This document shows positions 5,530-54,564 of a DNA stretch of 64,000 bases, piece after piece. This stretch comes from Bolinopsis microptera. Taxonomy: Eukaryota > Ctenophora > Tentaculata > Lobata > Bolinopsidae. Location: positions 2,666,001 to 2,730,000 of the forward strand of contig NC_087074.1 in NCBI RefSeq assembly GCF_026151205.1, written 5' to 3'. A program made the translations under genes and the position numbers. Position 1 is the stretch's first letter. The number at the start of each line of letters is the position of its first letter. The notes under the pieces are model-generated. The model made no database searches, was not told the DNA's origin, and saw only the letters and a list, made by a program, of their open reading frames with translations.

Positions 5530-5983
5530 ACATATGAGATTGTTATGTAGAAATTGAGGACTGATTGTAGTGCAGATAGTACTACTACTATATAGAGTAC
5601 AAAAGATAGCGCTATAATCGCTTGTATTTGTACTTTTTCTGGTGGCTTGGATAAAGTTAGTTCTTTACAGTCGCAGAGCTGCTTTTTATCGTGCTGGTGT
5701 TATATAATGCGTGAGTGCGAGACGCTGACCAGTCGCAGATATACAATATGTTATTTCGCATACTTTTATAAAACTTGTCGCAAAAAATATGAGAAAGCAT
5801 TTGCTTGAGCCTCAGTCCGCCACGTTCGATTTTGAAACAGCTATTTTCTCAGAAAACATTTTACTAACTCTAAAGGCACAATTAACTCTCTAAAAAAGGA
5901 CTCTGAATTGTGTGGGCGCTGAATACATCGATCGAAGTTACTTTGGAAATCACGTGATGTTATTCTCAGTCGGTTGGCTGCTT
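5530..5983. other. Intergenic DNA downstream of IFT20
   Basis: No exon or repeat family recognised. Confidence 0.4.
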
Positions 5984-6341
5984 ACACACTCTACACTTAT
6001 TGTCACGTGACTTTTTCAAGCGTTCTCTAGCTGGACCCTGGGCGACTTTTCGCACCCTAACACTCTAATCTGATCCTAACCCTAACCCAATCTTAACAAA
6101 AGCATATGCTGCAACCCTAACGGACGAGCAATTATACAACTTCCTATACGGTCGTATCACGTGGATCGAGCGGTTTTTCGCCATATCTCGTCAGGGGAGC
6201 ATTTTCCTATGTATGGGGATTGGGGGGTGCTTCGGAATGGAATGAGCGTCCGAAAAACACATCGAATCTAGTTGTTTCAACTATCGTGGGCCCTTTTAGA
6301 AAAATTTAGAAGATCGATTGAAGAGTGATTTAGCACGCTCG
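5984..6341 (+). repeat. Dispersed repeat family E, copy 1
   Basis: A stretch of about 360 bp is shared with 52788-53135 in the same orientation and, reversed, with 18676-19045 and 19818-20030. Landmarks are 'ttctctagctgg', a block of degenerate CCTAAC/TTAGGG-like units, 'aacaaaagcatatgctg', 'ctcgtcaggggagcatttt', 'cggaat..agcgtccgaaaa' and 'gtgatttagcacgctcg'. No coding capacity is visible. Nature unknown: it could be a non-autonomous element or the UTR of a larger one. Confidence 0.75.
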
Positions 6342-17390: not shown

Positions 17391-17644
17391 AGGGGGATAT
17401 CAATAATGATAATAGAGGGGACATTAGCGATAATGAGAATGAGAATACGCTTTAATGAAGATTTGACTTATTATTGTTTAGATTTATTTTCCTTTAAATA
17501 GACGTGTTTTTTTTCTATTTCTGAGTAATATCAATAACTGTAAATTGAAATAACTTCTTTAACAAGTAACAAAAACAGAAATTTCGGTTGAAAATTTGTT
17601 GACCTCTGAAAAAAAAACTTGAAAGGTCGGCCACCGGTAAATTC

Positions 17645-17865
17645 ATGACCGGGATAATTTGGCGGGTTTTGGGAAAGTCCGCCATATTTTTCCTTGTATC
17701 ACGTTGCAACCCCCACGGTCGTTTCACTATGTGGAACCCCCTTTATCGTCCTGACGATACGAGGGGAGCCGCGCACTTCGTGCGCGGTGGGTCATACAAC
17801 GTATGACAAATTTTTCCCGGTCATTAATTTTCCCAGTCATAAATTAACCCGCTATAATATTCCCG
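17645..17865 (+). repeat. Repeat G, split by a family A element
   Basis: Same sequence as 16005-16095, with a family A element (17694-17809) inserted at 'atttttcc', which is duplicated on both sides. Confidence 0.75.
17694..17809 (+). mobile_element. Family A miniature element, copy 1 (8-bp TSD)
   Basis: 116 bp from TTGTATCACGT to ACGTATGACAA, imperfect 11-bp terminal inverted repeats. The core contains the hairpin 'gccgcgcacttcgtgcgcgg'. It is flanked directly by 'atttttcc' on both sides and sits inside repeat G, whose empty version is at 16005-16095. 8-bp duplications are typical of hAT-type transposons; no transposase is encoded, so this is non-autonomous. The hAT assignment is inference. 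Confidence 0.85.
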
Positions 17866-17936
17866 AGAAAGGTATGTGAAATGGTTTGGCCCGGCGCACG
17901 CTACTTCGTAGCACTTGCCATTTTGAGAAGAAAGCG

Positions 17937-18125
17937 TTAACGGGTGATACTCGTAAAATATCTGTTCCAACTCGGCGCGCGTCCTGGTAGGTTGTAAACT
18001 TGATTCACGATGTCAATCCTTCGTATCTCGCCAATCTGCATACGTATACGGTGTGGTTGCGAGAAGCATTATTGGATGTGCGCGCGACCCAGTAGTGCAT
18101 CGCGCTACAAGTTGTAAAGCTACAA
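17937..18125 (+). mobile_element. Family C miniature element, itself split by family F
   Basis: Starts 'ttaacgggtgatactcgtaa', passes 'aactcggcgcgcgtcctggt' and ends 'gctacaa'. A family F element (about 17999-18110) is inserted with 'gttgtaaa' on both sides. The uninterrupted form is at 52217-52323. Confidence 0.7.
17999..18110 (-). mobile_element. Family F miniature element (8-bp TSD)
   Basis: About 112 bp, from 'ttgattcacgatgtcaatcc' to 'gtgcatcgcgctacaa'. It is flanked by 'gttgtaaa' at 17991-17998 and 18111-18118. Related copies, reversed, lie at about 19067-19204 and 19526-19662. Confidence 0.7.
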
Positions 18126-18186
18126 AAAAAAGCGGCGCGCTACTTCGAAGCTAAAAAACTTAGATAAGTAACATCCGTCAACAGTC

Positions 18187-18543
18187 AAATAATACATTTG
18201 TCGTGCGCGCTAAGCAAGTTTAACAAAAAATAATTATGAATTAATTTGCTCACAATATTTTAAAGAAAGGATTAAGGAATAAAAATATGATAAGGAATGA
18301 GTTGATTAAGAATCAGTGTGAAAAAATAAATTGTTTTGATTCACTTCCATATAATAACATATACGCTAATAGTTATAATATAAAATCAAATGTACTAGTG
18401 TGCCGCTTAATTAGATTTAACGGGTGAATCACCCGTCGGGTGATACTCTTAAAATATTTTTTCCAAATATTAGGACCGTTGACGCGCTCCTACCTACTAA
18501 ATCGCTCGCCCAAATTTTAAGAAAATTCTTGTCACTGCACTTG
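18187..18543. other. AT-rich DNA with a decayed family C-like stretch
   Basis: No gene. Around 18418-18520, 'taacgggtgaatcacccgtc' and 'gacgcgctcctacctact' resemble a degenerate family C copy. Confidence 0.4.
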
Positions 18544-18552
18544 TGAAAAGGC

Positions 18553-18666
18553 TTCACATAGCCATGTGCCTACGCGTACTGCGTGACGCGCTTGTTTCAC
18601 AAGTAGGATTTTGCCGCCTACGGCGGTCGCGCGCTACTGCAAGCGAGAGGGCTCTGGTTAGAGCAA
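18553..18666 (-). mobile_element. Family D miniature element, copy 1 (8-9-bp TSD)
   Basis: 114 bp from 'ttcacatagccatgtgcc' to 'ctggttagagcaa'. It is flanked by 'tgaaaaggc' on both sides (18544-18552 and 18667-18675). The core contains 'gccgcctacggcggtcgcgcg'-type palindromes. Nearly identical, in the opposite orientation, to 18862-18975. Confidence 0.85.
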
Positions 18667-18675
18667 TGAAAAGGC

Positions 18676-19045
18676 CCTCTAGGCATGAAAGTGATCTAGA
18701 TCGGTGTATTTTTGGACGCTGATTCCGAATCACCCCCCATATGACGTAGGGTTAAAATGCTTCCCTGGAGAGTTATGGGCAAAAAACCGTTTTGGTCATG
18801 TGACAGGCTAGTAAAACGTGAATTCGATTATTTAGGGCTCGGGTTAGGGTTAGGGTTGTGGTTGCTCTAACCAGAGCCCTCTCGCTTGCAGTAGCGCGCG
18901 ACCGCCGTAGGCGGCAAAAGACTACTTGTGAAACAAGCGCGTCACGCAGTACGCGTAGGCACATGGCTATGTGAAGGTTGTGGTTAAGATTATGGATAGC
19001 TTCTGGCTTCGGGGTTATGGTTAGGGTTGGGATTAGGGTTTATTA
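18676..19045 (-). repeat. Dispersed repeat family E, copy 2 (reverse), split by a D element
   Basis: 'gacgctgattccgaatcacc' is the reverse complement of the landmark at about 53035 and is followed by degenerate TTAGGG units ('gggttagggttagggtt' near 18841). A family D element at 18862-18975 splits the TTAGGG-rich end. Confidence 0.75.
18862..18975 (+). mobile_element. Family D miniature element, copy 2 (8-bp TSD)
   Basis: 114 bp from 'ttgctctaaccagagccc' to 'catggctatgtgaa'. It is flanked by 'ggttgtgg' at 18854-18861 and 18976-18983. It is inserted in the TTAGGG-rich part of repeat E, in inverted orientation relative to 18553-18666; the pair makes a 114-bp-armed palindrome. Confidence 0.85.
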
Positions 19046-19066
19046 ATATATATATATGTAAAACCT

Positions 19067-19340
19067 TGTAGCGCGATGCACTACTGGGTCGCACGCGCAT
19101 CAAATAATGCTTCTCGCAAATAATGCTTCTTTTCGGTAGATCGGCGAAATGCACCACTGTGCCTCACCGAGCTGCGAAGGATTGACATCGTTGATCGTGA
19201 ATCATTGTATCACGTGGTGACCCCCACGGTCGCTTCACTATAGTGTAGTGTAGAGTTTCGACGATACAGGGGGAGCCGCGCACTCGTGCGCGGCGGGTCA
19301 TACAACGTAAGACAAGTGAATCATTGTAAAACCATTTTGT
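19067..19340 (+). mobile_element. Family F element with adjacent family A insertion
   Basis: 19067-19204 starts 'ttgtagcgcgatgcactact' and ends 'gattgacatcgttgatcgtgaatca'-like, as in other F copies. A family A element occupies 19205-19315 (TTGTATCACGT ... GACAA) with 'gtgaatca' duplicated at 19197-19204 and 19316-19323. Confidence 0.75.
19205..19315 (+). mobile_element. Family A miniature element, copy 2 (8-bp TSD)
   Basis: 111 bp, same ends and 'ggggagccgcgcac' core as 17694-17809. The perfect 8-bp duplication 'gtgaatca' on both sides supports transposition rather than simple repeat divergence. Confidence 0.85.
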
Positions 19341-19399
19341 ACGGCTGCAAAACCAAAAAACCAAAGTCACGTAAAATTTTTGGGCGAGCGATTTAGTAA

Positions 19400-19662
19400 A
19401 AGCCCCGTCGACGAGTCCAACTCGGCGCGCGTCCTGGTAGGTTATAAACCTACAAAATTAGATTGACGTGTCAATCCTTCCATGAGTGTCCAAATTAAAT
19501 CGTTGATCTGCGAAGTAACTAGCAAATAAGGTTGTAGCGCGATGCGTTACTGTGCCGCGCCGCGCACTCAATGAGGCTTCTTACATGTTACAGCGACATC
19601 GGCGAGCTGCGCTACTGTGCCACGCCTAGCTGCGATGAATTGACATCGTCAATTATGAATTA
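19400..19662 (+). repeat. Decayed family C and family F copies
   Basis: 19405-19460 carries 'gacgagtccaactcggcgcg' and 'gtcctggtaggtt' of family C. 19526-19662 runs from 'ttgtagcgcgatgcgttact' to 'gaattgacatcgtcaatt' of family F. Confidence 0.6.
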
Positions 19663-19817
19663 ACAAATAAAGATTATAGTTCGCGCGGCGCGTCGAAATC
19701 TTCCAAGTTGCAAGTGTGCCGCGCATACTTAAACATTTTAGTCAAATCAAATCGAGCGCTATCATAAAAGTGTTCGAAAACCTACTTTATCTTCGAAAAT
19801 TTATCTAGATACATACG

Positions 19818-21572: not shown

Positions 21573-23057
21573 CTAGGAGACCTCAAAGCTCGTCTTCTGG
21601 GGAATGAGGTTGAAGGATACGTCTTGCAGTTCAAGATGCTGGGCTGTTGACCTTCCTCTGATTCCCCTCAGTGCAATGAGTGTACTTCTTAACAGATCAA
21701 ATCTGAATCGTGTTCTGATATGATTTTTGACTTGGCTCTTGGCTTCTTTTTTGTGGTCAGCTATCATCTCAGAGACACGATCTACAAACACTGTGCAGAG
21801 CGGTCCCATACCTCCGGAGGTTGTGAAGACTAGAGGGACAAAGGATCCCTTCTCCGACTGAAGTACTCTCTCTTCATAAAAATCTTTCTTTTCTTTCTCA
21901 TGATCTCTATAGATCTTATCTAGTGGCTTAAATGTATTTGTGTCACAGTTGGGATGTGTGACCCTGATGTCATAGAATGTTCTTTCGAAAGGTGCATACA
22001 ATCCGACAGCTGCTACATCAAGACGGGCTTCATCCTGGGTGTTGGTCTTCCTTGAGAATGAGCTTGGTTGGACTGTCAGGAGTGCTGGTTCTATCCTTAC
22101 GTCTTTACACTTTGCTTCTCGGAGGAAGAAAGCAGCAGTGTCTCTTATGGCATTGTGGCGCATGGCAACGTATCCACCTAGTTTACAGTCAAGGGCGTGG
22201 TAGATACTGTTTACATTTCCACAGGCACATTTAGAGGGCACTCCTTGGATCTTCCAACCATAACGTAGGCGTATGCTGTCTTGAAACTCCTGCCTGTTCA
22301 GAACATAGTTGAGGTCCTTCAGTGGTAGTGTTGAGAGCCATGTTGAGGCTCCCTTCTCTCTTGCTTGGTCTAGGTGGTTCTTAAGTTGATGATCTGACTC
22401 ATTATAGAGCACCTTGAACCTTTGGGAGAGAAACTCCTCTTTCTGTTTCCTCAGTTCTTCTTTCTTTTCTTTTATCTTGCCCAGATCCAGCTTGGTGATA
22501 TCCTGGTCTTGTTGGTTGATCAAACTCACAAGGTCTTTAGTTACTGCTACTGAGTAAACATATTCACGGGTTGTTATCCGGACAGGATTGATGATGCCTA
22601 GCCCTCCACATCGAACAGGAAGTTCAAGGATATCTCTCTCGTGCTGGCTGACTGGGCGACCAAGGAAGGCTGGAATGAGTACATGCATGATCTTGCTCTC
22701 CAGTGGGGCAAAGTACTCAGCAATATCAGGTATTGTCCTCATGAAGAACCTCCATCGGTGGCATACTCCTTTGGTGAAAGCTGAATAAGCCAGCTGTGGT
22801 TCTTCAGATGCAATATCAGCAAGTTGCTCAATATCTGTTATCCATTTCTCAACTTTTTCTTTGATGTAATCTTCCCTGTATTTCTTTGAGCCTACCACAG
22901 CACCAAGGTGACGTTCTCCAGATGTCGTGATCTTAACACCAAGATGCCCAAATAGAGTCTCTGCTTCAGTTTGGTCTTCGGGATTCTTGACAATTAGAAT
23001 GGTCTTTTTAGCGTTGGGGTAGTACCCATATCCCGGGCCGATGTCACAGAGTCTATT
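21573..23057 (-). pseudogene. RT thumb, CCHC and endonuclease part of an R2/NeSL/Hero-like LINE protein
   Basis: About 495 codons open on the minus strand. The first Met (23069) lies in the target duplication, so the protein start is artificial. Visible: post-RT 'GPGYGYYPNAKKT', a thumb region 'CGGLGIINP' (about residue 155), a CCHC motif 'CACGNVNSIYHALDC' (about 281-295), and the nuclease-like 'ARLDVAAV' plus 'FYDIRVTHP' (about 348-373), then 'SGGMGP'. This order (RT, CCHC, PD-(D/E)xK-like nuclease) is that of LINEs with a restriction-like endonuclease rather than an APE endonuclease. The catalytic RT motifs are lost by truncation, so it is inactive. Confidence 0.85.
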
Positions 23058-23255
23058 CCATAAAGACACACATTCCTTTCAACCCTCCTGTGCTAACTGT
23101 AAAAATTCTAATAGAACTGATGAACAGTACACACACTCAGCCACAGATAGATCATGCCCAGCCTATATCTCTGAACAGCACAAGCTTAAGCATTCCATCT
23201 CATATTACACCCAAAAAAACTGGTGAAGAACAAGACTGGAGTTAAGAGCCTTAGT

Positions 23256-26075
23256 ATGAAATGTGCAAGCTGGAATGTTCGCTCTCTAAACAACAAAGTT
23301 GACCATGTTATGAACTTTTTAGAAGATAACAACATATCTATTTTCTTTGTTACAGAAACATGGCTAACTGATGAGAACAACAACACCACTGCAATAATAA
23401 AAAACTATGGCTATAAACTTTACCAAGTGTATCGCAAAGACAAATCAGGTGGAGGTGTTGCCATAATCTACAAATCATGTGTTCGTCTAATCAAAGTTTT
23501 TGCCAACAATGACGGATCATTTGAGGCAATTAACGCAAAACTGAAACTCGTTGATGGGTCTGTCGTCTTCTGCTCCTGTGTCTACCGTCCACCTGGGTCC
23601 TTGGGAAATTTCCTCTCTGATTTTGAAGATTTCCTGGCGGATGCATTCTCAAAATACAAGCATTTCTTGCTATGCGGAGATGTTAATATGCACCTAGACA
23701 GAATCTCTGCCCATGTGAGCGAGTGGAGCACCATACTATCATCTTTTGGGCTTCATCAACTTGTCTACTCACCAACACATAAAAAAGGTCACATCCTTGA
23801 TCCTGTTATTTCTTCGCACAAAGTAGTAGATCAAACTTCTGTTGAGGTAATGCAAAACATGGCCAAAAGCTTCCCATCCTGTGACCACTATCCGATTATA
23901 TTTCAGCTTCATAAGCCTCCTGACATTGACAAATGTGAGAAAGTCATACGCTTTAGAAAGATCAGAGACATAGATCAGGAACAATTTAAAGGTGATTTAT
24001 CTGTTGCTCTATCTGAGTTGGTTTTTGAAGAAAAGAGCTTCTCTGATGTTGTGACTCAATTTAACAATGGGTGTCAACATATACTAAATGTACATGCTCC
24101 AGAATATTCCAAAACCATCAAAGACATTCCCACTGCTCCCTGGTTTGATGGCGAATACAAAGTTGCAAGAGCCGACAGAAGAAAGGCTGAGAAAGCCTGG
24201 AAAAAGTCAAGTCTTGACATTGATCATGATATCTTTGTTCATTTGCGAGAACACTGTTCAGAGCTGACTCTCAAAAAGAAAAAACTGTTTTTCTCTAATA
24301 CTTTCCAAAAATACAAACACTCACAAAAGAGCCTTTACAAGTTTGTAGACACTTTCCTGGATAAAGAAAAGAACCTCACTTTACCATCTTCAGAAAATCT
24401 TCAGGAAACTGTAAATGCCTTTAACCAGTATTTTACTGAAAAAATTGAGAAAATCCGAACATCATTTCCCAACACTACTGTGACTAATAGTTCTCCAAAC
24501 TTCAATGGCCAGGCATTATCTGAATTTAGAAAAGCTACTATTTTTGAAGTAAGAGAATTGATCAAAGAATCTGGCATCAAAACCTCATCGATTGATCCAC
24601 TACCTAAAGAACTCTTGTCAGAGCACCTTGAGCTAATCCTCCCTACCCTTTGTGATATTATCAACGTTTCTCTTTCAACTGGAAGTATGGAGGGAATCAA
24701 ACTAGCACATCTCACTCCCCTAATCAAAGGAGATTCCCTAGACACTGAGAACTTAAAGAATTATAGACCCATCTCTAATCTTACATTCATCGGTAAACTC
24801 ATTGAGCGCTTTGTATTAAAATGCCTCAATGAACATCTAGCCAAGAATAATCTCAACATCGACCACCAGTCTGGTTACAAAAAGCATCACAGCACAGAAA
24901 CACTCCTCATTACCATAGTCAATGACCTCCTCATAGCCACTAATGAAAACACAGCAACAGTTGTAATGCTTTTAGACCTGAGTGCTGCATTCGACACAGT
25001 TGACCATATCAAACTGATCAATATATTGAAGTGTGAGATTGGGATTGCGGGAACAGCCTTGAAATGGTTCACCAGCTTCATCCGTGGTCGTTGTCAAAAA
25101 GTCAAGATAGGTGACCTAGAATCTGAAGAAATTGTAATAAAGTTTGGTGTCCCACAGGGCTCTGTCCTTGGCCCTGTGTTGTTCAATATCTACATCCGCT
25201 CAATTTACTCTTCTGTAAAATCAAAGCAATTTCTGATCCATGGCTATGCTGATGATCACCAGATCTACAAGTCATTTTCATCCGCTACAGAATATCAAGT
25301 CCTCAGCGAAGACCTGCCCTCCTGTTTTAGAGAAATCGAGACCTGGATGACGAATCACTTCCTTCTTCTAAATCCAACTAAAACTGAAATTATAGTTTTT
25401 GGTTCAAAACGTTTATTGTCAGAATTAGAAATTGGTGGTGTCTTCCTAAAATCTTCTGTCTGTATAAGACTTGTTAACGTTACCAAAAACCTTGGCTTTA
25501 CATTGGATTCCTCTCTGACTCTAAATCCTCAGATAAAGAAGCTTAAAGCTGCAAACTGCCACAAGATGCGGAATATTGCAAAGATGAAACCATTCCTCTC
25601 TGAAGATCAAATGCAAATCATCGTACAATCTCTTGTTATTAGTTCGCTTGACTACTGCAATGCACTTTACTATGGTACTAATCATTCTGTTTTGAAACAG
25701 CTACAATCTCTGCAAAACAGAGCATGTCGCTTAGTTAAAGGTCTAAAGAGGAGAGAAGAAGTTGAGCCCTACATAAAAGAACTTCATTGGCTCAAGGTAC
25801 AAGAACGTATTGAATTTAAAATACTCCTGCTAACTTTCAAACTGCTCCATGGACTAGCACCTTCATACCTGTCAAACCTTGTCAAGTACAATCCCAGTGG
25901 TGGCAGAGATGTGTCTCTTCATTGCCCTATAAACAGTCCACCAAGAGCCTTCTCTTCATCTGCTCCAAGATTATGGAACAACCTTCCTCAAGAAATCAGG
26001 AAATGTGTAAACATCAATGACTTTAAGGGAAAACTAAAAGCTCATCTGTTTAGAAAGTCCTTTGATATGTACTGA
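23256..26075 (+). CDS. ORF2 of a CR1/L2-like LINE: APE endonuclease plus reverse transcriptase
   Basis: 939 codons from the first ATG (23256); the frame is open from 23223. Endonuclease motifs: 'CASWNVRSLNNK', 'VTETWL', 'YRPPGS', 'LCGDVNMHLD' and 'SCDHYPI' near residue 210. RT motifs: 'NYRPISNL', 'LLDLSAAFDTVDH' (codon about 582 of the open frame), 'GVPQGSVLGPVLFNIYI', 'YADDHQIY' (about 673), then the conserved tail '..FSSSAPRLWNNLPQEI'. The ORF is intact with all catalytic blocks. ORF1 is disrupted upstream, so the copy as a whole is unlikely to move by itself unless supplied with ORF1. CR1/L2 placement rests on the motif style and the TTA-rich 3' tail. Confidence 0.92.
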   Translation: MKCASWNVRSLNNKVDHVMNFLEDNNISIFFVTETWLTDENNNTTAIIKNYGYKLYQVYRKDKSGGGVAIIYKSCVRLIKVFANNDGSFEAINAKLKLVDGSVVFCSCVYRPPGSLGNFLSDFEDFLADAFSKYKHFLLCGDVNMHLDRISAHVSEWSTILSSFGLHQLVYSPTHKKGHILDPVISSHKVVDQTSVEVMQNMAKSFPSCDHYPIIFQLHKPPDIDKCEKVIRFRKIRDIDQEQFKGDLSVALSELVFEEKSFSDVVTQFNNGCQHILNVHAPEYSKTIKDIPTAPWFDGEYKVARADRRKAEKAWKKSSLDIDHDIFVHLREHCSELTLKKKKLFFSNTFQKYKHSQKSLYKFVDTFLDKEKNLTLPSSENLQETVNAFNQYFTEKIEKIRTSFPNTTVTNSSPNFNGQALSEFRKATIFEVRELIKESGIKTSSIDPLPKELLSEHLELILPTLCDIINVSLSTGSMEGIKLAHLTPLIKGDSLDTENLKNYRPISNLTFIGKLIERFVLKCLNEHLAKNNLNIDHQSGYKKHHSTETLLITIVNDLLIATNENTATVVMLLDLSAAFDTVDHIKLINILKCEIGIAGTALKWFTSFIRGRCQKVKIGDLESEEIVIKFGVPQGSVLGPVLFNIYIRSIYSSVKSKQFLIHGYADDHQIYKSFSSATEYQVLSEDLPSCFREIETWMTNHFLLLNPTKTEIIVFGSKRLLSELEIGGVFLKSSVCIRLVNVTKNLGFTLDSSLTLNPQIKKLKAANCHKMRNIAKMKPFLSEDQMQIIVQSLVISSLDYCNALYYGTNHSVLKQLQSLQNRACRLVKGLKRREEVEPYIKELHWLKVQERIEFKILLLTFKLLHGLAPSYLSNLVKYNPSGGRDVSLHCPINSPPRAFSSSAPRLWNNLPQEIRKCVNINDFKGKLKAHLFRKSFDMY

Positions 26076-31300: not shown

Positions 31301-34300
31301 ATTGAAGTGTCCTCCATGACACATTTATTAAACACACTGTACTGCTGTGAACATTAGAATTGTATTTACTTTGTGTGTCACATACGTATAAAGACCTGCC
31401 TGTCCTGAAGTTTGCATAATAGATATATTTAGAATTTAGAAGCCACGTCTTTGAACAGCACAACATTGGATAGCGGGGAGGTTATTTGGCAAGAGATCAT
31501 TACATGTCACACTATTATAACATACTTTTATAACATACTTTTATAACATATTTTTATATGCTTATTATTGATCTGTAATTTGTCACTACAATTTCCTCTC
31601 AGATCAGGTGACGTGTAACTTCTGTGAGGGAGATCAGGTGATAGTACTAAAGAAGAAGTTACCTGCAGAACCCGGCGTCGTCAGAGCTGTCTTTCAGGTT
31701 TCAACAATAATTCAACTATAACTCTCTGGCCATTTCTACCATTATAACTCGATCCCTCCAAAGTTTACTCTCAGAAAAGAGAATGACGCGTCAAATCCAT
31801 ACACCTCCCCAGATGTAACATAATTTTTCTATTTTCAGGACGCAAAAAAACAGTGGATATTAGGAATAGAACTAGACAACCCTGTGGGAGACAGCAACGG
31901 AATGTACAAGGGTCGGCAGATGTTCACATGTGAAGCTCGGTTTGGTATATTCTGTGACACAACCGAGGCAATGCCCAAACACTACTACGAATCACCCCGA
32001 GTCCAGAGTCCCACCCCGGCTTCTCAACCTAATCACAACAGATCAGCATCTTACGGAGCTCCTCCACAAGTCACAGCAGGAACTGTTTCCAACGACTTCT
32101 CCAGCCCACCTCCCAATTACAACGATACCTTTAACTCTCACCCTGTCGTCAGTAACACCCAGTCACGTGAGCAACCCATACCCCGCTCCCCAAAACCTGC
32201 CCGCGTCAAGTCACCCAAACATGACTTTGAGTCTGCCTTCAGAATGCGCTCTCCCACTCCCTCGAACAATAAACTACCTGCTGATTTAGTTCACAGTATA
32301 AACACACTGTCGTTAGCTGGTGGCAGTAATGTTGTTGAGGACTCAATGTTAGATAACTCTCACAGAGTAGAGTTAGCCTCCACTAAAGCCAGGTCGTACA
32401 GCCCCAAGCTGGCTCCCGAGACCCCGGACCCACCTCCAGAGATAGACTACACGTTAGAAGTTGGCAGCATGATACAAGTCAGTAAAAGCAATGTAGTTCA
32501 CTACGGCGTGTTACGTTGGATTGGGCACCTGCCCGGTAAGAAGTATCTGTGTGCTGGATTGGAGCTGGAGGAGGAGATATCACCACCTGGCAACAATGGA
32601 ATGTATGAGGGAGTGAGGTATTTCACATGCCCGCCCTTCCGTGCTCTCTTCTGTTATCTTCACGACTGTTCGAAAGACAGGCGATTTGAAGAAATGCCAG
32701 TACAGCCGGAAATTAAAACAAATTACTTCGGACCAAAAGAAAGTCCTGTTATTGAGGGAAAGGTAGACCCCCCTAAGTACATATCCCCAATGTACATTGG
32801 CCGGAGTAGAGGTATACAGGGAAATAAAAACTCGTGCTATTTAGACGCAACTTTATATGGAATGTTCGCTTTTACCAACACGATGGACTACATCTTGTCA
32901 ACCCCCGTTGACGGTCACATTAATCAGACGATACAGAAAATACTGAGAGAATCAGTTGTTAATCCCTTGCGTGAGTGTGGGTTTGTGGGGGCGGATCATA
33001 TGAGGATATTACGGGACTTGATGAGCAAGAGCTCTACTTTAGTTGGGTTGGAGGATGAAGAGAAGGAGCCCGAGGAGTTGCTGAACGTCTTATTCACCGA
33101 GATATTCAATATCAAACCTCTTCTGTCATTCAGGTACGAACTCTTACTTTACAAGTTGAACTTTGGTGAGGTTTGTTGTGGTAAATGTTTCATTGTTAGT
33201 GTTCTGTGTTGTAGAGAGTCACTACTGCATCTGCTGTATTATATACAAACCAGGAAATTTGTGTAGGTATCTCTCTCGTTAAACAACATGTCCTAACACT
33301 GCTTTTGTCATTATGTGCATTAATTATACATAAAATACTATACATTATGTACGTAACAGGCTATAAATTGCACAGTGTTCTCCTACACTAGAGATATTTT
33401 TTTCTTGACATCTGGTAATGTAGGTGATTGAACTTTATATCGACAATATATATAATATATATATATATATTATATCAATATATCAATATAACTAACAGTA
33501 TACACCCTTATATCTGCCACCCCAGAATTGTACAAGTTAGCCCAGCATTATTGTGAAAATAACATTAATTATTCTTCGTACCAACAGCTCGTACAACAGA
33601 ACATATCGTCAGGCCGTTTCAAAGAAGCCCGACCATTCCACATAAACACGAAAAGCCACAAATATCGAGGAATTTCGGTGGAATTCCCGCAGAATTCCGC
33701 GAGAAATGGTCGGGCTTCTTATACACTACCCATGTCACCATGTTAATTACCATTAGTTAATTACGGGCCACCCTGTACAACTCTCCCTCAAAACTACAGA
33801 GCTTGCCACTCCCTGCACACTACAAAACATGTTAAACATTGACGTTGTTGATCTGACCCTCAAACGTTACATTTTAATCATACCAGACATTTCTAAAATT
33901 ACAGGGACGGCGCTAATGAGATCTCGCATGTGAATTTGTGTCAGATACTGTTGGAGAGAGACCCACACAGTTCCACCATGCCGCACACTCAGGATCTACT
34001 TACAAGATACTTTGTCAGTCAAAACCTATTCTTTCACACTCAACCTGATCTTTTACTCTTGCAGGTATGTTGTTTAATTGGTCAAGCTCTATTTTATTAA
34101 TTGATAAATACGCTAACAAATTAAGAAGATTTGAGTTTCAAAAGGATAGCAATTTTTTATTGCAACCATGCAATAGAAATTGCATGGTATAATGTGCCAG
34201 CATTTTACATTGTCTGCTCATTGAAAGGTCTGAAAGTTTATTGTATAAATAATGAAAAGAGGGTAATTATGTAGTCTAGGAAGTAGGATCATAATAAATA

Positions 34301-37300: not shown

Positions 37301-40300
37301 CGGTACGTTCTCGAGTGTGTGAATCTCTGACGAAGTGGTTTTAAAGTTCTTGTTGTTATGTGACTGTTGCGAGACTAATTATAGTAATTATATTAATAAC
37401 TAATTGAAGTAAAATCAAAGCAGTTGGAATCAGAAGGCAAAAGAAGGCTTGAAGCTATTATATCAGAAGTGGTATTATTTGTTGTGAGAACAAGATTTTA
37501 GAGTGAATTAAATTATTTGCGACATTGTCATATTCGCTCCCCATTGCATCTGGTCCGAGTCTGTTAGCACAGATCACCTGGGAGTGGTAACACCATAAAA
37601 CCGTTAATTGCCTGTCAGTGCTATATCACTGGGGGGTCGGTTGCTGTGGTGGCGAGAGGATGCATTTGCTGGGTGGTGCTTGGTGATGCTGTCTTGTGGC
37701 AGGGTCATCTGTGTGTCACCTACGGTTCACCATATTGTCCAAGTCTTGGTTGCCCTGTGTAATTGAGCATTTGCTTGGTGATCGTGTCTCAAACATGATC
37801 ACTTACGGTTCAATTTTGATTCCCTAAGGGCTTCAGAAGCTCTGCATGCTTTTATTTTACGTATCGAACCTAACCACCAGCATGCTGGTGTCCGGACGGA
37901 GGGCTTACATTTTGATGTCGGTGCTGCCTCTGGATCGGGTGCGAAGGTCCGGCAAACCATCCACCTTAAATCAAACCGCTACAGAAACGTCTACAGTGTC
38001 ATTCAATAGTATTATACGTGGAGGCGCAGGTGGAGTGATGACGGCGACTAGGCAAAGCCGAAAGGACCCTAGTAGCTTGATGTCTGTTTGCAACTCCCGT
38101 AAGAGCCGACGTAAACACTGTAAATACAGAATTCCTTCATCAGATTTATCATTTGTAAACAGACAGTCAAGTATGTCTAATCCTGTAAATATTGTAAAGA
38201 ATCCTCTCTGTGTCAGTACATGGAATGTTACTTCTCTTGTCAGCAATTCCAGCAAGATGTATCAATTGGGAAAAGGGTTTGATGATTATGGACTAGAGCT
38301 CCTTGGGGTAACTGAAACACATATGGCTGGATCGGGAACTCAGACTTTGGGAAATGGGGCTGTTTTGGTGTATTCTGGCAGGAATGATGGGGTACGGAGA
38401 GAAGGAGTCGGTGTTGTACTGTCCAAAAAGATGAAGAATACTCTCATATCATACACCCCTGTATCAGGACGGGTTATGACTGCCCGTTTACATAGCAAAC
38501 ACATCAACATTAGTGTTACAGTGGTATATGCTCCAACTGAGGATGCAGAGATCAGTTTAAAAGACTCATTCTACAAGGAATTGAATGATGTTCAATCGGG
38601 ACTACCTGCTCATGATATAAAAATAGTTTTAGGAGATTTTAATGCTCGTGTTGGAAGGGACACTGATGCTCACCCTGGTGTTATAGGAAAACACTCATAT
38701 CACACAGAATCCAATGATAACGGAAAACGGATGCTAGATTTCTGTACTATGCACCAGCTGACGATCGGAGGCACACTTTTTGAACACAAGGATATCCACA
38801 AGACAACATGGAGATCCCCAAATGGTAACACCGTCACTCAAATTGACCATATTTGTATTTCAACGAGATGGAGCCATTCATTGCTTGATGTCAGGAGCAT
38901 GAGAGGAGCAGATATAAATACTACTCACTACCTGGTAAGAGGATATGTATCTATTAAGCTTAAGTGTCCACAGAAAAGAAAGAAGCGTGTAAGACAGCCT
39001 GCTTTAGAGAACTTGCGTGATAGATCTAAGAGCCAGGAATATAGTAACAAAATAGCTGAAAAATACTATACCAACGATCAGGAGCTTGGAAACTCTCCTT
39101 TAGAAGAACAATGGAAGAAATTGAGAGACATTATAACTGATATCTCGTTTGAAGTTCTGGGTGAAAGGGGCCGGAAAAAGAGAACAGAACATCTCTCAAA
39201 GGATACTAAGAATCTCCTAAAAGAACGAGGTGAGATTAAAAAGAAACCTAGTACTGCTGAGAATCGTGCTAAGTACTCGCAGATTAACGGTCTTGTTAGG
39301 CAGAACTGTAAAAGAGATGATAATGCCTGGGCTGTTAGAGTAGCTGAGGAATTGGAAGAGGCTGCCAAGCAGGGTCAACAAAGAGATGTTTGGCAGAAAA
39401 TAAAATCCCTTACAAACAAGAGAGTAAACAGATCTGCGGCAGTGCGGGATAAGAATGGGACACTTATATCAGATCCCGAAGCTCAGTCACATCGCTGGGC
39501 CGAATATTTTGAAGAACTCTTGACGCCAGCAGCAGATGCGGTGGATTTCTCTCTATTGGATGAGGACGAAAAGGTACTTTCTTTTGAATATCTTAGTAAT
39601 GATGATGAGCCACCGTCCTTGTTTGAAATTGAGGAAGCTATCAAGAAGTTGAAGAACTACAAAAGTGCTGGAATTGATGAAATTTCAAATGAGCAGTTAA
39701 AGTACGGTTCTCCTGGACTTCTGCCTTGGTTAAAAGATTTGTTTGAAACTGTATGGAAAAGTGAGGATATTCCTAGTGATTGGAGGAAAGGAATCATCAC
39801 CATCATCCCAAAGAAAGGGGACCTCACATATTGCAACAACAACAGAGGGATAACTCTACGCTCCACCGTATCGAAGTTATTTCAAATCGTGTTGTTAAAA
39901 AGACTAAGTAATGGGCTTGAAAAGTTACTTAGAGAAAATCAGTGTGGTTTCAGGAGAAACCGTTCTTGTATAGATCAGCTATACTCCCTTCATTGTATAA
40001 TACACAATTGTATAGAATTCAACGTCCCTTTGTATATAAACTTTATTGATTTTAAAGCTGCTTTTGATTCAATCAATCGTGACTTTATTTGGAAAGCTTT
40101 TGAACATTATGGTCTTCCAACAAAATACATCAATGTTTTCAAAGCGTTCTTTAGAGCAACTGAAAGTGCAGTTCGTGTCAATGGGGAATTGACAAGATGG
40201 TTTGATGTCGATTCGGGGACTGGACAAGGTGATGTGCAAGGGCCTCCCATTTTCAACCTTGTACTTAACTGGGGATTAGAACTTGCCGAGAAGTTTAAAA

Positions 40301-43300
40301 ATATATCGCGTGGTTTTACTCTTCAGTACAGACAAAGTTCCAGACAACCGGAAAAATGTGTCATTGATTTGGACTATGCTGATGACATAGCAGGCATGGA
40401 TGACACTGTCGAGGGACTGCAAGAAACAACGGACAATATTGCGAAATACTGTGGGCTTGGGGGTTTAAAGATGAACGCAAAGAAAACAGAGATCATGGTA
40501 ATTGGGAAAGATACGTCGCAGCACCCACTCCCAGAGAATAGGACCATAGATATTACTGTCGATGGAAACTCTGCAAAGCAGGTCACTCAATTCACTTATT
40601 TGGGTGCCAAAATTACATCGGATGGCAAGATCGATAAAGAAATAAGTGTCAGGATTGGAAAAGCAACCGGAGCTTTTAACCAACTCAATAACATTTGGAA
40701 GAATAAGAACATAAGCATTAACAACAAAGTGCGAATCTACATCGCAGCTGTTCTTACCATTCTGACCTATGGAAGTGAGATATGGAACACGACTCAAGTG
40801 CAGACAAGAAGATTAGAGTCTTTCCATCAGTACTGCTTACGCAGAATCCTGAGAGTGAGGTGGTTCCATCGAGTAAGAAATGAAGATGTTTTAAGAAGGG
40901 CTTCAATAACTGCTCTTACTGACATAATAGCAACAAAACGGCTACGTTGGTTTGGACATGTCAGTAGAATGCCTGAAGATCGGTTACCTAACTATCTACT
41001 TGAATGGAAACCCAAGCATGGGAAACGATCAAGAGGCAGGCCTAGGAAGAGCTTAAATGATGTATTTATTGAAGATGCTGAGCAGAGATTGGATCGTAAT
41101 GGACTCACGATTGATTGTATGAGAAGATTGGCTGCAGATCGAAAAGGATGGAGAAATATTACCCGCCGAAGTTGTATAATACAAAGTAATGACGCAGATG
41201 ACGCAGACTAATCCTTTTGGATGGAGATCTCGCCATGTAACATGTAACATATTCATTTTCATGCTAGTTTTTTTCGCTCACCCTTTAGAGCCGCTCTGAC
41301 ATGGTTAGTAGCTAGATATTGTGCCTGCTGCTATTCATATGGGCGGGAAATAAGCACATTATTTCATGATTAGTAACTAATACCGTACATTAAATATCCA
41401 CGAATTAAAACATCACATTTAATCCTTTTATGCACTATGCAGTATGAGAATGTTAGTTTGTTTTTTAAATGTCACGTTTCATGTAGCTAGGTGATGTCAA
41501 GCTCCAACCCTTGGATTTAATAAGTACTGACTACTACTGGTCTGACACTTGTCGCTCCTCGCAATCTATGTTTTGTCCATATTTGGAGATTATTATCCTT
41601 CTAACTACTGCACTGCTCTTGATCAAATGAAAATCTGAATATATTATGTTGAAATTGTCCTTATTCAATATCAGCAAATCAGCTTTTAGCTCATCAGCGT
41701 AGGGGTATGTGTCACAAAGGAAAGAGTGATTACAAAACTTCGAGGTCACATTAATTCATTTCGTCCCTTAGTGATCCATCACTTCTATTCACCATGATGG
41801 GTAATAGAACCTAACTGTGCAGTGTGCATGCGATCTTGTGTTAATCGTACATTTGTTCAATACACCCTCTGTCCGACACAAACCGTTATCGGTGATGTCC
41901 ATTGTCCACAAGAGTAAACAGCATTTACAATCCTTGATTTACATGTTCTTGTTGCTAGGTATTGTGCAGGATGTACACTTATGGCTCAGGTTCACAAGGT
42001 AAAAATAGAAACTTGCACTTGAACTCTTAGTATAGACCATGTCATTATTCTATATCATTTGCAAAAGACTAGCAGTAAGAGTTATGAGGCTGGGTAAGCG
42101 AACTGAATTCCTAACAATCACTACTTATACTGGTAAGGGTTCTCTCTGTGAAAAGGGGAGCCTTTTTACACATTTAACTACACATTAATAAGATCAACGG
42201 ATTATCTTGAGGACCTGAGCCTGGGGTCTGGAAACTTCTTTAATTTCTGATTTAAGAAAATAATAAGATATATTTAAGATATATTCTCCCGAAAATATTA
42301 TTCATAATCAGTGAAAAAAGCATCATGCTCATCACATGAATTTTGGAGTAGAAACCCCAAGAGAAACTATAATTTGTATACTAAAAATGCGAAAAGTTGA
42401 TGTTAAACTAGAAAATAGAACGAGGCGCTGGTTCGTTTAATAAAACGGTATATAATAACATAGATACTGATTCCATGCATCTCTTCTTTGTGCAAATGTA
42501 AGAGGCCAAAATACTAGGAGTTCATCCGTTAACTGACAACTTCTTTATATATTAGCAAGAATGTTTCTATTTTTAGTGACTTTGTTTGCTGATTATTTCC
42601 TATCATATATAAATTATAGCTATCTTAACCAATAACCATTCTAACAATGATCACGTGAATAATAAACCTTCTTAAATCTATTACAGTACTGCAGTACATA
42701 ATATGGGGCGGATGCCGTGAAATACAATTTATTGAACTGAAGAAGTACAGAGCTATTATATCCTATAGTTGACGGCTGGGCACTATAGCTGTATAGGTAG
42801 TGTTCTGTCACATCTCCCAGTCGCAAGCCTGGGACCACTACTAGCATAGTCACAACATCTATAAAGCTGCCATATAGCCTGACTGACAATTTTCTCGACT
42901 GACTGACAATGTTTCTTCTTTTCCCCATTTAGAATACAAAGATTAGTACATTTTAGCTTATGATTAATATTATATTTTTACCTATAGTTTACCTAGATTA
43001 CACAATTTCAAAACTCTAAACTCCAACCTTATATTATATATATATCAGGTGCCAAGATCAGGAAAAGACTTCAAATTATACGACACAGTGTTGCCCAGTG
43101 CAGAGCTTCAGTTGGGAGGTCTTTGTGGTGGTGTCTGGGGCTCCTGTTATATCTGCAACAAGAAACCCTTCATGAAGTGCCCTCAATGCTACATCAACCA
43201 GGTTCGCTATCTTATTAATTAGTAATTAATTTATTAGTAAATTGGCACTCAATCTAGAATCCCAGTTATGAATTGACAGTTGAAGCAGCAAACCTTATTC

Positions 43301-43431: not shown

Positions 43432-43472
43432 GTATGTTTAATAACGATCAATATTTTGTTTGTTATTGATTA

Positions 43473-43760
43473 ATGGGGGGGGGGGGGGGGGGGGGGGGGT
43501 TGACATGTCTCCAATGTCTCCCGCACCTTATCTTTTCGAAAAAGACAAAGACATTGGAGACATTGGAGACATTGGAGACACAGCTTTTGGAGACATTGGA
43601 GACATTGGGGACATTGGGGACACTGGGGACACTGGGGACATTAGAGACACAGCTTTTGGAGACATTGGAGACATTTGGGACATTGGGGACATTGGAGACA
43701 TTAGGGACATAAAATGGATATTAGGGGCATTGGAGACATTGGAGACACAGCTTTTGGAGC
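43473..43760 (+). repeat. Poly-G tract and (G)GAGACATT minisatellite
   Basis: A poly-G run of about 27 (43473-43499) is followed by a 9-bp-based array 'ggagacattgg/ggggacatt' with intervening 'gacacagcttttgga'. Reverse-complement sequence recurs at about 45600-45765. The poly-G is a likely assembly or basecall weak point. Confidence 0.85.
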
Positions 43761-45590
43761 CTCCTCCTCCTCCTCCTCCTCCTCCTCCTCCTCCTCCTCC
43801 TCCTCCTCCTCCTCCTCCTCCTCCTCCTCCTCCTCCTCCTCCTTCTCCTCCTCCTCCTCAGTCCTCCTCAGTCGTTCTCCTCCTCGTCCTGAGTCCTCCT
43901 CCTGGGTCCTCCTCCTGGGTCCTCCTCCTCCTGGGTCCTCCTCCTCCTCTTCATCCTCCTCCTCTTCCTCCTCAATCATCAGTCCTCCTGATCCTCCTCA
44001 GTCCTCCTCCTAATCCTTCTCGTCAGTCCTCCTCCTCCTCCTCAGTCCTCCCCAAGTCCCCCTCCTCCTCAGTCCTCCCCCAGTCCCCCTCCTCCTCCTA
44101 TTCAGTCCTCCTCCTCCTCAGTTCTCCTCAGCTCAGTCCTCCTCCTTCTCAGTCATCCTCCTGAGTCCTCTTCCTGAGTCCTCCTCCTGAGTCCTCCCCT
44201 CTTCCTGAGTCCTCCTCCTCCTAGGTCCTTCTCCTCCTCCTCCTCCTCCTCCTCCTCAGTCCTTTTCCTCCTCCTCCTCATCCTCCTTCTTAGTCATCCT
44301 CCTCAGTCATCCTCTCTCTTTCCCTTCACATCCTCCTAGCATCCTCCCGCCATCCCTCCCAGCCCCCTCCTCACCATCCTCTCACCCATCCCCCCAAACC
44401 ACCTCCTCAGTACTCCCAGTCCCCCTCCTCAGTCCTCACCCTTCCCTTGCCCCCCTCCTCCTCCTTTTCCTCCCCCTCCTCCTCAGAGTCCTCCTCCGAG
44501 CCCTCCCCTGAGCCCTTTCCTCCGAGTCCTCCCGCCTGAGTCCCCCCCCCCGGGTCCCCCCCCTCCAGTCCCCCTCCCCCTCCTCACCCTCAGTCCTTCC
44601 CTCCCCCCCTAAAACCATCCTCCTCACCCCCTCCCCCCTCATCCTTCATCATCCCCTCTCTTCCCCCTCCTAGGGCCCCCTTCCCCCTCTTCCCCTCAGC
44701 CTAGCCCCTCCTCTCTTCTCGCAGCCCCCTCCCTAGCCTCCCCAGCCCCCCCCTCCCCATTCGCCCTCCTCCCCCCTCCCCCCCAGTTCTCCCGTCCTCC
44801 TCCTTCTTTTCCCCCCAATTCCCTCCGGTTTCCCCCCCGGGGTCTCCTCCCCCTATTCCTCCTTTTCCCTTTCCCCCCTCAGCCTTCTCCCCTCCCCCCC
44901 CCCCCCTGTACTTCCCTCGAAACTCCCAGCCCCTCCTCAGCCCCCCATCCCCCGGTTTCCCCTCCTCCCCCCTCCGAGTCCCCCGGGTCCCCCTCCTGGT
45001 TTTTTTTCCCCCTTTGCCCTTTCCCCTCGTCCTCTTCCCCCCCCCTCCCCCTCCCCCAGTCATCTCCTAGCCACCCCCTCGTCTCCCAGCCCCCCCCCTA
45101 TCCCCCGGGTTTCCCCTTTCACCTTAGCCCCAGCCCCTCCCGGTTCCTCCCACCTTCGCAGCCGATCCCAGCCCCCCCGTCCCCCCCCCCCCTACTTCCC
45201 CCCCTCGGGGTTTCCCAGCCTTTTATTTCAGCCCCGAGCCCCCCTTTTTCCCCGAGCCCCCCGGGGTCCTCGCCCTTGGGCCCCCCTTCCCTTCCCTCAC
45301 CTTTTCCCTCCCCCCCCAGCCTTCGACCCCCTAGCCCCTCCTAAAACTCCCCCAGCCCTTTTTTCCTCGTCCCCCAGCCTTTTCCCTGATCCCCCCCCCG
45401 ATTCCCCCCCCCGATCCCCCCCCCCTTGTCCCCCCCGGGGGGCCCCTCCGGGCAACCCCCGGGTCCCCAGACTCCAGCCCCTCCCCCTCAGCCCCCCTTC
45501 TCAGTCCCCCTCAGCCCCCTTTCGAGTCTCCCTGAGCCTCACCCCTCCTTCCCCTCCTGAGCCCATCCGGGTTCCCCCCAGCCCTCCTCC
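43757..45590 (+). repeat. Long CCT microsatellite grading into C-rich noise
   Basis: Pure (CCT)n to about 43850, then CCT/AGT variants, then ever longer C runs with little structure to about 45590. The Ser/Pro ORFs on + and Glu/Gly/Arg ORFs on - are by-products. The loss of period and growth of homopolymers suggest poor base quality. Confidence 0.85.
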
Positions 45591-45599
45591 TTCCCAATA

Positions 45600-45770
45600 A
45601 CATTACGTCTCCAGGGGTCTCCAATGTCCCAAGTCCCCAAAAGCTTTGTCTCCAATGTCTCCAATGTCCCCAAAACGCGTGTCCCCAAATTCTCCAAGTT
45701 TTCCAGGACATGTCTCTGCACCTATTTTTTCAAAAAAGACAAAAAAAGACATTCCCCCCCCCCCCCCTTT
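45600..45770 (-). repeat. Inverted copy of the GAGACATT minisatellite
   Basis: 'ctccaatgtccc', 'aagctttgtctccaatgtctcc', 'ggacatgtctctgcacct' and 'tttttcaaaaaagac', then a poly-C run, mirror 43490-43660 in reverse complement. Confidence 0.8.
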
Positions 45771-52180: not shown

Positions 52181-52475
52181 TGCTTGGAGGACTTCGACGC
52201 GCCGCGGGAAACTATCTTAACGGGTGATACCTCGCAACTCGTAAAATATCTGTTCCGTATTATATTGGACCGTCGACGAGTCCCAACTCGGCGCGCGTCC
52301 TGGTAGGGTTGTAAACCCTACAAGAACTATCATTCTTGCTTCGCATCGTACTGATCCAAAGATCGTTGCTTAGCTTCGCATCGTACTGATCCAAGATCGT
52401 TGCTTAGCTTCGCATCGTACTGATCCCAAGATCGTTGCTTAGCTTCGCAGAGCAACGATCTCGATGGGTTAACAT
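52181..52475 (+). repeat. Second copy of the 17.2-kb repeat with insertion and local triplication
   Basis: Matches 17300-17390. A family C element (52217-52323) interrupts it after 'actatc'. The 38-bp unit 'cttcgcatcgtactgatcc' + 'aagatcgttgcttag' then occurs three times (52337-52450). Confidence 0.75.
52217..52323 (+). mobile_element. Family C miniature element, uninterrupted
   Basis: About 107 bp from 'ttaacgggtgatac' to 'gtaaaccctacaa'. Flanks 'aactatc' on both sides (7 bp, possibly 8). The empty site is visible at 17310-17325. Confidence 0.75.
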
Positions 52476-52785: not shown

Positions 52786-52787
52786 GA

Positions 52788-53135: not shown

Positions 53136-53194
53136 GGCCTCAGGCAGCCTACGCTTGTTTTACACACGGTGTCCGCCACAAATTTTCATATTTT

Positions 53195-54389
53195 ATGAGG
53201 ACACTAGATATCAGCTTTTATGTCTTATATGGGCCCTCTTGATAAAATAATCACTCATGAGCTAATTATTCCAACTATATTTGGTTGTCCAGTATCTCCT
53301 ATACACCGAAAGCTTATGTCATTACCATTAAAGAACGGAGGTATGGTAATGCCACAGTTGGAGTATCTAGCGAAAAGAGAACATGCTGCATCGCTTTTGG
53401 TAACCCGGGGATTGGTAAATTCCATGAAAGGAAAATCTCTTGCTACTATGTACTACCGACATGGAATCGACTGATGAGCTTCTTACCTGAGGACCCCAGG
53501 CTATTATGTTCATTAACAAATAGAGATTAGGCGGAATGACAGGCTGATCGAGCGCGGCCCAGTAAATGAGCTTCAAGATATGTTAAAACAGCGTGTTTTG
53601 GAATATAAACAACAACAAGAGGAGATACTTAAAAAGGTTGGTAAGAAGACTGCAAGGGTTTTGGAGCAGATAAGCGAACCAGTGAGCTCAAATTGGCTTT
53701 CATGTCTACTTGACGGATGTTACTCGTCTAAATTTCTTCGAAGTAGCGCGCGCCGCTTTCTTCTCGAAATGTTGGCAAGTGCTACGAAGTAGCGCGCGCC
53801 GGGCCAGATCATTAACAATGGTCAAATGTCTACCACTAATAAAACATGGTTTCGTTCTAAATAAATCTGAATTTAGGGATTCTATCAGATTGCGGTACAA
53901 CTTAAATCTGGATCGTTTACCATCACAATATCTATGCGGAAAAACGTTTGATGTGAAGTACCATTCTCTAAATTGCCATCTTGGTGGCTACATCATTATC
54001 AGACACAACGAAATTAGGAATTTTTTAGCAGGCTTGCTGAAGAGTGAAGACTGTTTGCTCGGACGCGGAAGTTGAACCTCAGCTTTAAGAACTAGAAGGA
54101 GAGCAGTTCAAGAGCAAAGAGGTCCTCAACACTTACGGGTGACCAGGCAAAACCGGATATTAGAGCTCGAGTGGTTTCTATAAGCCGGGCCAATTGGCTT
54201 TTTTCGATGTTAAGGTAATTAATCCTAATTCTAATTCCTACCAGCTACCTTCAACAGTCGACAAAGAAGAACATGGAGAACGCCAAGAGCAGAGAGACAG
54301 AAAACACGATGCTACAACGAGAGAATACTTAATGTAGAGCACGGATCATTCGCTCCATTAATTTATTCAGTAACAGGTGGCATGGGACC
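53195..54389 (+). pseudogene. Decayed restriction-like-endonuclease LINE, broken by miniature elements
   Basis: Pieces match the LINE at 21573-23057 in order: 'YMGPLDKIITHELIIP' and 'LPLKNGGMVMPQ' (53220-53360); 'LEQISEPVSSNWLSCL' (53670-53709); after a family B insertion, 'GFVLNKSEFRDSIRLRY' (53848-53900); the CCHC-like 'YLCGKTFDVKYHSLNC' (about 53928-53975); then the nuclease-like 'FFDVKVINP' (about 54200) and 'SVTGGMGP' (54370). Stops and frame changes are many. It is a different subfamily from the 21-kb copy. Two family B elements sit in it (53710-53825, 54390-54555). Confidence 0.8.
53710..53825 (+). mobile_element. Family B miniature element, intact copy (8-bp TSD)
   Basis: 116 bp with imperfect 13-bp terminal inverted repeats 'ttgacggatgtta' / 'taacaatggtcaa' and core 'cttcgaagtagcgcgcgccg' repeated in inverted form. 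The flanks 'atgtctac' (53702-53709, 53826-53833) are a perfect 8-bp duplication. Taking out the element and one flank makes the LINE reading frame continuous across the site, as expected for a simple insertion. Confidence 0.9.
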
Positions 54390-54555: not shown

Positions 54556-54564
54556 CATGGGACC

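Follow-up and report, generated by a model that had tools for sequence, protein, structure and literature searches.

The window, by which we mean the whole stretch of 64,000 nucleotides of Bolinopsis microptera DNA analysed here, contains short insertion elements of several families, some of them placed inside one another. Families are designated by letter, and the elements are as follows.

17694..17809, plus strand: family A copy, TTGTATCACGT..ACGTATGACAA, 116 bp; duplication atttttcc at 17686-17693 and 17810-17817.
17877..17936, minus strand: 3' part of a family B copy, its outer end decayed, broken by C (blastn to B at 53710-53825).
17937..17999, plus strand: 5' part of a family C copy (TTAACGGG..), followed by F; the duplication of C in B agrees at about 7/8 (agaaagcg / aaaaagcg).
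18000..18110, minus strand: family F copy within C; duplication gttgtaaac (17991-17999) / gttgtaaag (18111-18119), 8/9.
18120..18125, plus strand: remainder of the family C copy (..CTACAA).
18127..18181, minus strand: 5' part of the family B copy, minus-strand end TTGACGGATG (blastn to B at 53710-53825).
18553..18666, minus strand: family D copy, flanked on each side by the 9-bp duplication tgaaaaggc.
18667..18861, plus strand: piece of a longer repeat, R, host of both D copies, with 97-98% copies elsewhere in the genome.
18862..18975, plus strand: family D copy; duplication ggttgtgg at 18854-18861 and 18976-18983.
19066..19204, plus strand: family F copy with A inside; 9-bp duplication tgtaaaacc at 19057-19065 and 19325-19333, the final F base being 19324.
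19205..19315, plus strand: family A copy within F; duplication gtgaatca at 19197-19204 and 19316-19323.
19532..19663, plus strand: family H copy (F-like); duplication caaataagg / caaataaag, 8/9.
52217..52323, plus strand: family C reference copy.
53483..53565, plus strand: family E copy (TTACCTGAGG..); 9-bp duplication atgagcttc.
53710..53825, plus strand: family B, intact reference copy, splitting an ORF; duplication atgtctac.

The two D copies (18553-18666 and 18862-18975) stand in opposite orientation inside a longer multi-copy repeat. This repeat R is about 380-490 bp long and occurs in the window at 18667-18861, 52779-53136 and 5979-6341, and also at loci L154 and L033, at both of which 9-bp duplications were seen by eye; it has TTAGGG-rich stretches, and its ends, CGAGCGTGCTAAATCAC and GGATGATGATTAATCAC, are weakly palindromic near nucleotides 11-12. 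Elsewhere in the window there are long ORFs at 23190-26075 and 37828-41211 with endonuclease and reverse transcriptase domains, LINE-like in character, an ORF at 31824-33266 with CAP-Gly domains, possibly a CYLD-like host gene, tandem repeats at 50255-51795 (327 bp) and 48169-49673 (315 bp), and a C-rich polypyrimidine tract at 43445-45600, with a GC skew of -0.435 over 44-48 kb. When the elements were considered as RNA, no Rfam match was found in 17600-19700 and no tRNA within the window.

Target duplications of the five families

Each family was searched for across the whole 264.65-Mb genome and 40 candidates were scored per family, the first-look candidates numbering 1875 for A, 1909 for B, 889 for C, 1743 for D and 1564 for F (7,980 together). 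Copies were counted at the best-match loci (30 each for A and B, 20 each for C, D and F), in the window and as extra copies in the flanks, and this sample, coming from best matches, therefore leans to better-preserved copies; those more than about 5 bases short of either reference end, and those with identical flanks, were dropped before counting. End-to-end copies of the five families measured 86-133 bp, and the termini were TT and AA in all families, including E, G, H and I. The proposal, made from the sequence alone, that A, B, C, D and F are insertion elements proved correct, their ends being sharp and their duplications far above shuffled controls, and every duplication quoted in support of it was found in the sequence. 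The elements thus show the short unit, the target duplications and the many copies by which MITEs are recognised.

Duplications were counted only when exact, with boundaries fixed per family, and the remaining copies had no exact duplication of 5-12 bp. Family A gave 8 bp in 30 of 42 copies and 9 bp in none of the 42, and family C gave 8 bp in 19/30 and 9 bp in 2/30. The 9-bp length predominated in family D (18/29, with 8 bp in 4/29 and 7 bp in 1/29) and in family F (18/26, with 8 bp in 1/26), while family B had both (9 bp in 18/47, 8 bp in 9/47, 7 bp in 1/47). Flank identity at the best length was 0.70-0.88, against means of 0.28-0.31 (maximum 0.42) for re-paired flanks, and lengths other than 8 or 9 lay near the re-paired level. 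The length of the duplication is thus a property of the family, and the sequence-only reading, which had the duplications as mostly 8 bp, holds for A and C but not for D and F, at 9 bp, or for B, with both. Base preference at the target was weak, C occupying the final position in 0.51 of the 63 sites of eight bases and G the initial one in 0.43 of the 56 sites of nine, and no general hairpin was found at the insertion sites, where the best z was 2.1-3.1 among 61 centres per set.

Nested insertions

The nesting of F in C and of C in B, proposed from the sequence alone, was borne out by the duplications of F (8/9) and C (about 7/8). Nesting of A in B had been proposed likewise and is present at 54390-54560, but the A copy there is truncated. 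More widely, 15 of the 119 exact-duplication sites lie in another element of the set, and such nested sites give back uninterrupted target elements; nesting is therefore real, its frequency of 12.6% only moderately exceeding the 7.2% of local sequence that the elements cover. The 7.2% is what the nine family references cover in 156.6 kb of sequence flanking A and B copies; they cover 3.2% of the window and, in 24 kb sampled from 13 contigs at round coordinates, 0.7% (three fragments, in 1 of 20 stretches), this last sample being too small for copy number. The elements are thus clustered. Among longer hairpin-ended units in the fetched DNA, eight rows of 178-252 bp correspond in length to two elements nested or side by side, and the five of them that were checked singly match nested events.

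The B copy at 53710-53825, which had been placed in a LINE, splits an ORF. The frame downstream of it corresponds to residues 251-324 of the minus-strand ORF 21576-23078 (47% identity, E 1e-22), and upstream there is a weak match to residues 197-251 of the same ORF (25%, E 0.024). A LINE is a likely host, short of proof, since ORF 21576-23078 gave no Pfam hit of its own. Another B copy, at locus L153, contains an element of about 257 bp, CACAGGGGG..CCCCCCTGTG, between GGTC repeats, which has the look of a Chapaev- or EnSpm-like MITE.

Five insertions (three of E, one of C and one of H) were seen at one and the same position of D, 16|17, after ACCAGAGC, at loci L162 (twice, as two successive insertions in one D copy), L168, L169 and L170, all four loci having been chosen for a break at that position. 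A general preference for inserting where the hairpin stem closes on its inner side is not supported, as an unselected nested set, in which L051 and L052 represent one duplicated event, had 6 of 23 insertions at a distance of 12-24 nt from an element end, the expected number being 6.9, and thus gave no favoured position within the target element; an apparent enrichment, read informally, in an earlier list of 15 sites was set aside because the interval had been picked post hoc.

Palindromic ends

Read inwards, most ends start with two unpaired bases, TT, extended to TTA in C5 and E (the numeral denotes the 5' or 3' end), and a short imperfect palindrome of 14-17 nt follows. In the consensus ends A3, B5, B3, C5, C3, F5 and F3 the hairpin starts at nt 3 or 4 and has a 6-7-bp stem and a 3-nt loop, while in D5 and D3 a stem of 5 bp closes on four loop nucleotides (AACC and AGCC); A5 is the exception among the consensus ends. 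A palindrome centred on nt 11 reached a summed score of 95/126 over 18 ends, those of D included and those of E, G, H and I being single copies and not consensus sequences, whereas eight other centres scored 31-45.5 and the maximum of 20,000 shuffles was 63. The weak palindromes were A5 (4/7) and G5 (3/7), and G5 was also non-palindromic in a de novo test.

The de novo test drew on 262 duplication-flanked TT..AA units in the fetched loci, pattern-chosen loci included and the tandem arrays L138 and L142 omitted. Their ends formed 16 clusters of at least 3 distinct 19-mers, of which three one-base-shifted clusters were kept and two D clusters, with their other geometry, were omitted. The 14 representative ends paired with their own arm at 73 of 98 positions; re-dealing the arms 20,000 times gave 44.1 on average and 63 at most. 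Both shuffle controls ignore kinship, B5, C5 and I3 being kin, as are the 3' ends of F, G and H.

We then compared the stems at the two ends of each element. Over nine families and 61 stem pairs, with A5 entered as its GTGGTGA variant and the ends of E, G, H and I as single copies, 26 pairs differed on both sides between the 5' and 3' ends and yet paired, 18 were the same, 6 had a one-sided change and were still paired, 10 were broken at one end and 1 at both. Family D is the clearest case, with the hairpins GCTCT-AACC-AGAGC and CACAT-AGCC-ATGTG at its two ends. As terminal inverted repeats the two ends of an element agree only in part (A 10/13; F in TTG and CGATG), and palindromes are found instead. 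The inverted repeats look poor because in A, B, D and F the two ends agree in the tag and near the loop but have different stems, each still largely complementary, the loop-proximal bases common to both ends being ACGTTG in A, TGTTA in B and CGATG in F. Within families the copies were too alike for compensatory change to be followed, two-sided changes numbering 0 in each of A, C and F, and 3 in B and 2 in D against shuffled means of 0.4 and 0.1.

Folding of the whole element as DNA gave z values, for reference copies, of -4.0 in A, -3.7 in C, -5.4 in G, -2.6 in H, -2.9 in I and -2.0 in D, and was not exceptional in B (-0.7), E (-1.1) or F (-0.9). Three additional copies gave -7.8 (A), -0.5 (B) and -2.3 (D).

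Further families and shared ends

A scan of 281 kb for units bounded by exact repeats of 8 or 9 bases returned 208 with TT...AA termini, against 11-55 for each of nine other terminal dinucleotide pairs, boundary-shifted duplicates being counted throughout. Among 53 units that matched none of the first five families we found the further families E, G, H and I. Family E (TTACCTG..CCAGTAA, 77-106 bp) is recurrent, while G, whose ends read ..GTCAACCAA, the F-like H and the C-like I each occur in few units of the scan. The 5' end sequence is common to B and C, and a 3' end motif is common to F, G and H. As the cores of these families differ, their ends have therefore been exchanged or inherited between families.

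The suggestion that several small families follow one common design is thus upheld in a stronger form than was first put forward, since the families have in common a TT and a hairpin at a set distance and, in part, the ends themselves. End-sharing and the one geometry favour one machinery or close relatives, while the fixed 8 or 9 bp per family and the different hairpin of D favour more than one transposase, or a flexible one.

Some very small derivatives were also observed. Between exact 8/9-base repeats, locus L166 has a 46-bp B unit, barely more than its two ends, and locus L175 a 14-15-nt stub of the A 5' end; either these are the result of later deletions or they are very small movable units. 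The A 5' end (TTGTATCACGTGGTG) recurs as a 15-bp tandem array at G000:C11:1342737-1344215 (55 of 85 pattern matches), apparently a minisatellite born from a transposon end.

Search for an autonomous partner

A limited search, made up of five end-anchored patterns, with 29 of 153 matches fetched, and one MULE domain search, brought no autonomous partner to light, an absence that counts for little as evidence. The patterns excluded known interiors, the fetched spans were 0.15-3.9 kb, and the other matches were judged from 24-33 bases. Matches (fetched in brackets) numbered 13 (5) for the B 5' end, 14 (8) for D 5', 14 (7) for B 3', 85 (3) for A 5' and 27 (6) for the F/G/H 3' end; 55 of the 85 for A 5' belong to the one 15-bp tandem array, and a backward control gave 16. 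Many of the fetched matches were broken copies, or copies split by another repeat, and L173 and L174 lie at a duplicated stretch with gene-like ORFs.

At L158, L160 and L161 a D end continues into sequence without a match to the same element, and at L176-L179 a G-like end does likewise. A longer element may be present at these seven loci; within the DNA fetched there, extended by 1.76 kb at the L160 site, neither a second TT-hairpin end with a matching duplication nor a transposase was found. Contig C10 has two near-identical stretches (L160, L161, L182) in which the first 15-16 nt of D are followed by sequence assigned to none of the families (about 2.4 kb read at one).

The Mutator (MULE) domain search of the genome returned 88 matches. 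In four 5-kb regions from two groups of these matches, GCGAC was present in most of the sequence-matched terminal candidates, no TT-hairpin end being among them, and the same regions held no TT..AA hairpin pair with an exact duplication at most 4 kb apart.

Mode of transposition

The units are mostly about 75-130 bp long, with exact ends and an 8- or 9-bp target duplication according to family. We consider that they are probably MITE-like cut-and-paste elements moved in trans with an 8-9-bp stagger, whose ends would be read mainly by the TT, the loop and a foldable stem, and we put the probability of this reading at roughly 0.6. For it speak the family-specific duplications, the palindrome at nt 11, the stems that differ and yet pair, and the nested sites that give back their targets; against it speak the lack of a partner transposase in the search described, the weak palindromes A5 and G5, the scarcity of compensatory change within families, the lack of a general hairpin at insertion sites, the unexceptional folding of B, E and F, and the kinship of some ends, which the shuffles ignore. 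One or several related transposases would be supplied in trans, would cut just outside the TT and would join the element to staggered cuts 8-9 bp apart. Each end would be recognised chiefly through its TT tag, its loop and the capacity of its stem to fold, and less through one fixed stem sequence, the recognised form being perhaps an extruded hairpin or a two-fold symmetric site, and on this proposal ends with different stems would thus stay mobile.

The usual view of DNA transposases is that sequence guides them to their elements. The ends described here agree less in sequence than in hairpin folding, which hints that the enzyme may read shape. The stronger claim, of a eukaryotic system making staggered double-strand cuts and reading its ends by shape (TT tag and small-loop hairpin at a set distance) and not by sequence, is in our judgement rather unlikely; if it were true, many unrelated sequences of about 100 bp could become mobile and swap ends, and the system would be a eukaryotic counterpart of the REPIN. 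Geometry and pairing are kept while the stems differ, so that recognition of ends by structure can be put to a direct test in a eukaryote, and such recognition, if real, would explain how many tiny unrelated families share one helper. The combination of TT, a palindrome at nt 11 and an 8/9-bp duplication also provides a search rule for other genomes, and even if the mechanism were ordinary the elements would be a clean case of a family-specific stagger of 8 as against 9 bp.

Other explanations have to be weighed against this one. The first, suggested from the sequence alone, is that these are ordinary hAT MITEs moved by one hAT transposase with 8-bp duplications. The exact 8-bp duplications of A and C (30/42 and 19/30) and the many small families agree with this, but a constant 8 bp is departed from everywhere except in A and, mostly, in C, since D and F have family-specific 9-bp duplications (18/29 and 18/26) and B has both. 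The hAT target pattern is nTnnnnAn, and it did not appear in the 30 exact duplications of family A, the family to which this comparison applies (T at position 2 in 10/30, A at position 7 in 9/30). Non-uniform duplication length and TT...AA termini thus make a poor fit to hAT, and on these grounds we regard this explanation as very improbable. That the elements are MULE-type MITEs is a more serious alternative, for which the chances are low but substantial: a Mutator-like transposase would recognise end sequences in the ordinary way, and the palindromes would be incidental or would serve as dimer-binding sites. Duplications of 8-11 bp, given for MULEs in the available part of PMC6446971, include the 8 and 9 bp found here, the genome has its 88 domain matches, and the mixture of 8 and 9 bp in B would suit a flexible enzyme; against it, the four MULE regions mentioned above, from two groups of those matches, were without TT-hairpin ends, their terminal candidates being mostly of the GCGAC kind.

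The palindromes could also be a mutational product of fold-back synthesis at the birth of an element, in which case a conventional transposase would read only the TT and the shared loop-proximal bases. It is these bases that are common to both ends in A, B and F, as expected of such an origin; however, neither a centre fixed at nt 11 across families of different sequence nor pairing kept despite two-sided differences would be expected if pairing were neutral, and we hold this explanation to be fairly improbable. The least probable of all, and one to which we give hardly any credence, is single-strand, HUH/REPIN-like transposition of tagged hairpins. Precise target duplications of 8-9 bp speak for staggered cutting of both strands, which HUH enzymes are not known to carry out, even though a tag and a short-loop hairpin, inverted at both ends of a small unit, are the plan of the REPIN as set out in the available parts of PMC3116915 and PMC3733652.

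Comparison with known systems

The elements are filed here as an unusual MITE variant, without assignment to a superfamily. In common with MITEs in general they are small, are present in high copy and make target duplications, and their inverted ends match in part; in contrast, they are very short, their ends match poorly and yet mostly fold, and the palindrome lies within each end and not across the element. In the literature searched, with preprints and most subscription papers outside the search, no title or abstract opening was found on TT and palindrome ends with 8/9-bp duplications.

By the length of the duplication, as far as the available parts of PMC6446971 and PMC8101967 describe it, the nearest eukaryotic groups are MULE and Merlin. 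The MULE MITEs share the 8-11-bp duplications and some spread in them but differ in that no TT-hairpin ends were found in the four MULE regions examined, and MULE terminal inverted repeats are commonly hundreds of bases long in the excerpt of PMC6446971. Merlin elements, in the excerpt of PMC8101967, have 8- or 9-bp duplications, as here, and terminal GG, whereas the ends described here are TT. The coral CMITEs, in the portion of PMC2872659 available, are likewise a group of related small MITE families for which tandem arrays are reported, but their proliferation is tied by the authors to piggyBac-like transposons, whereas the duplications here are of 8-9 bp.

In architecture, the nearest match among the systems known to us would be the bacterial REPIN, an analogy that rests on the plan of the ends. 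As described in the available parts of PMC3116915 and PMC3733652, a REPIN is a small non-autonomous unit in which two tagged short-loop hairpins stand in inverted orientation, and it is associated with tyrosine (HUH) transposases. That arrangement, in which the tag is unpaired and a helper acts in trans, is given there for REPINs and the GTAG- and CGTC-tagged bacterial REPs, and the inverted pair of tag and hairpin is found here with TT as the tag (weakly so at A5 and G5). The elements of B. microptera differ from the REPIN in having a eukaryotic host and a TT tag, and they make target duplications of 8-9 bp.
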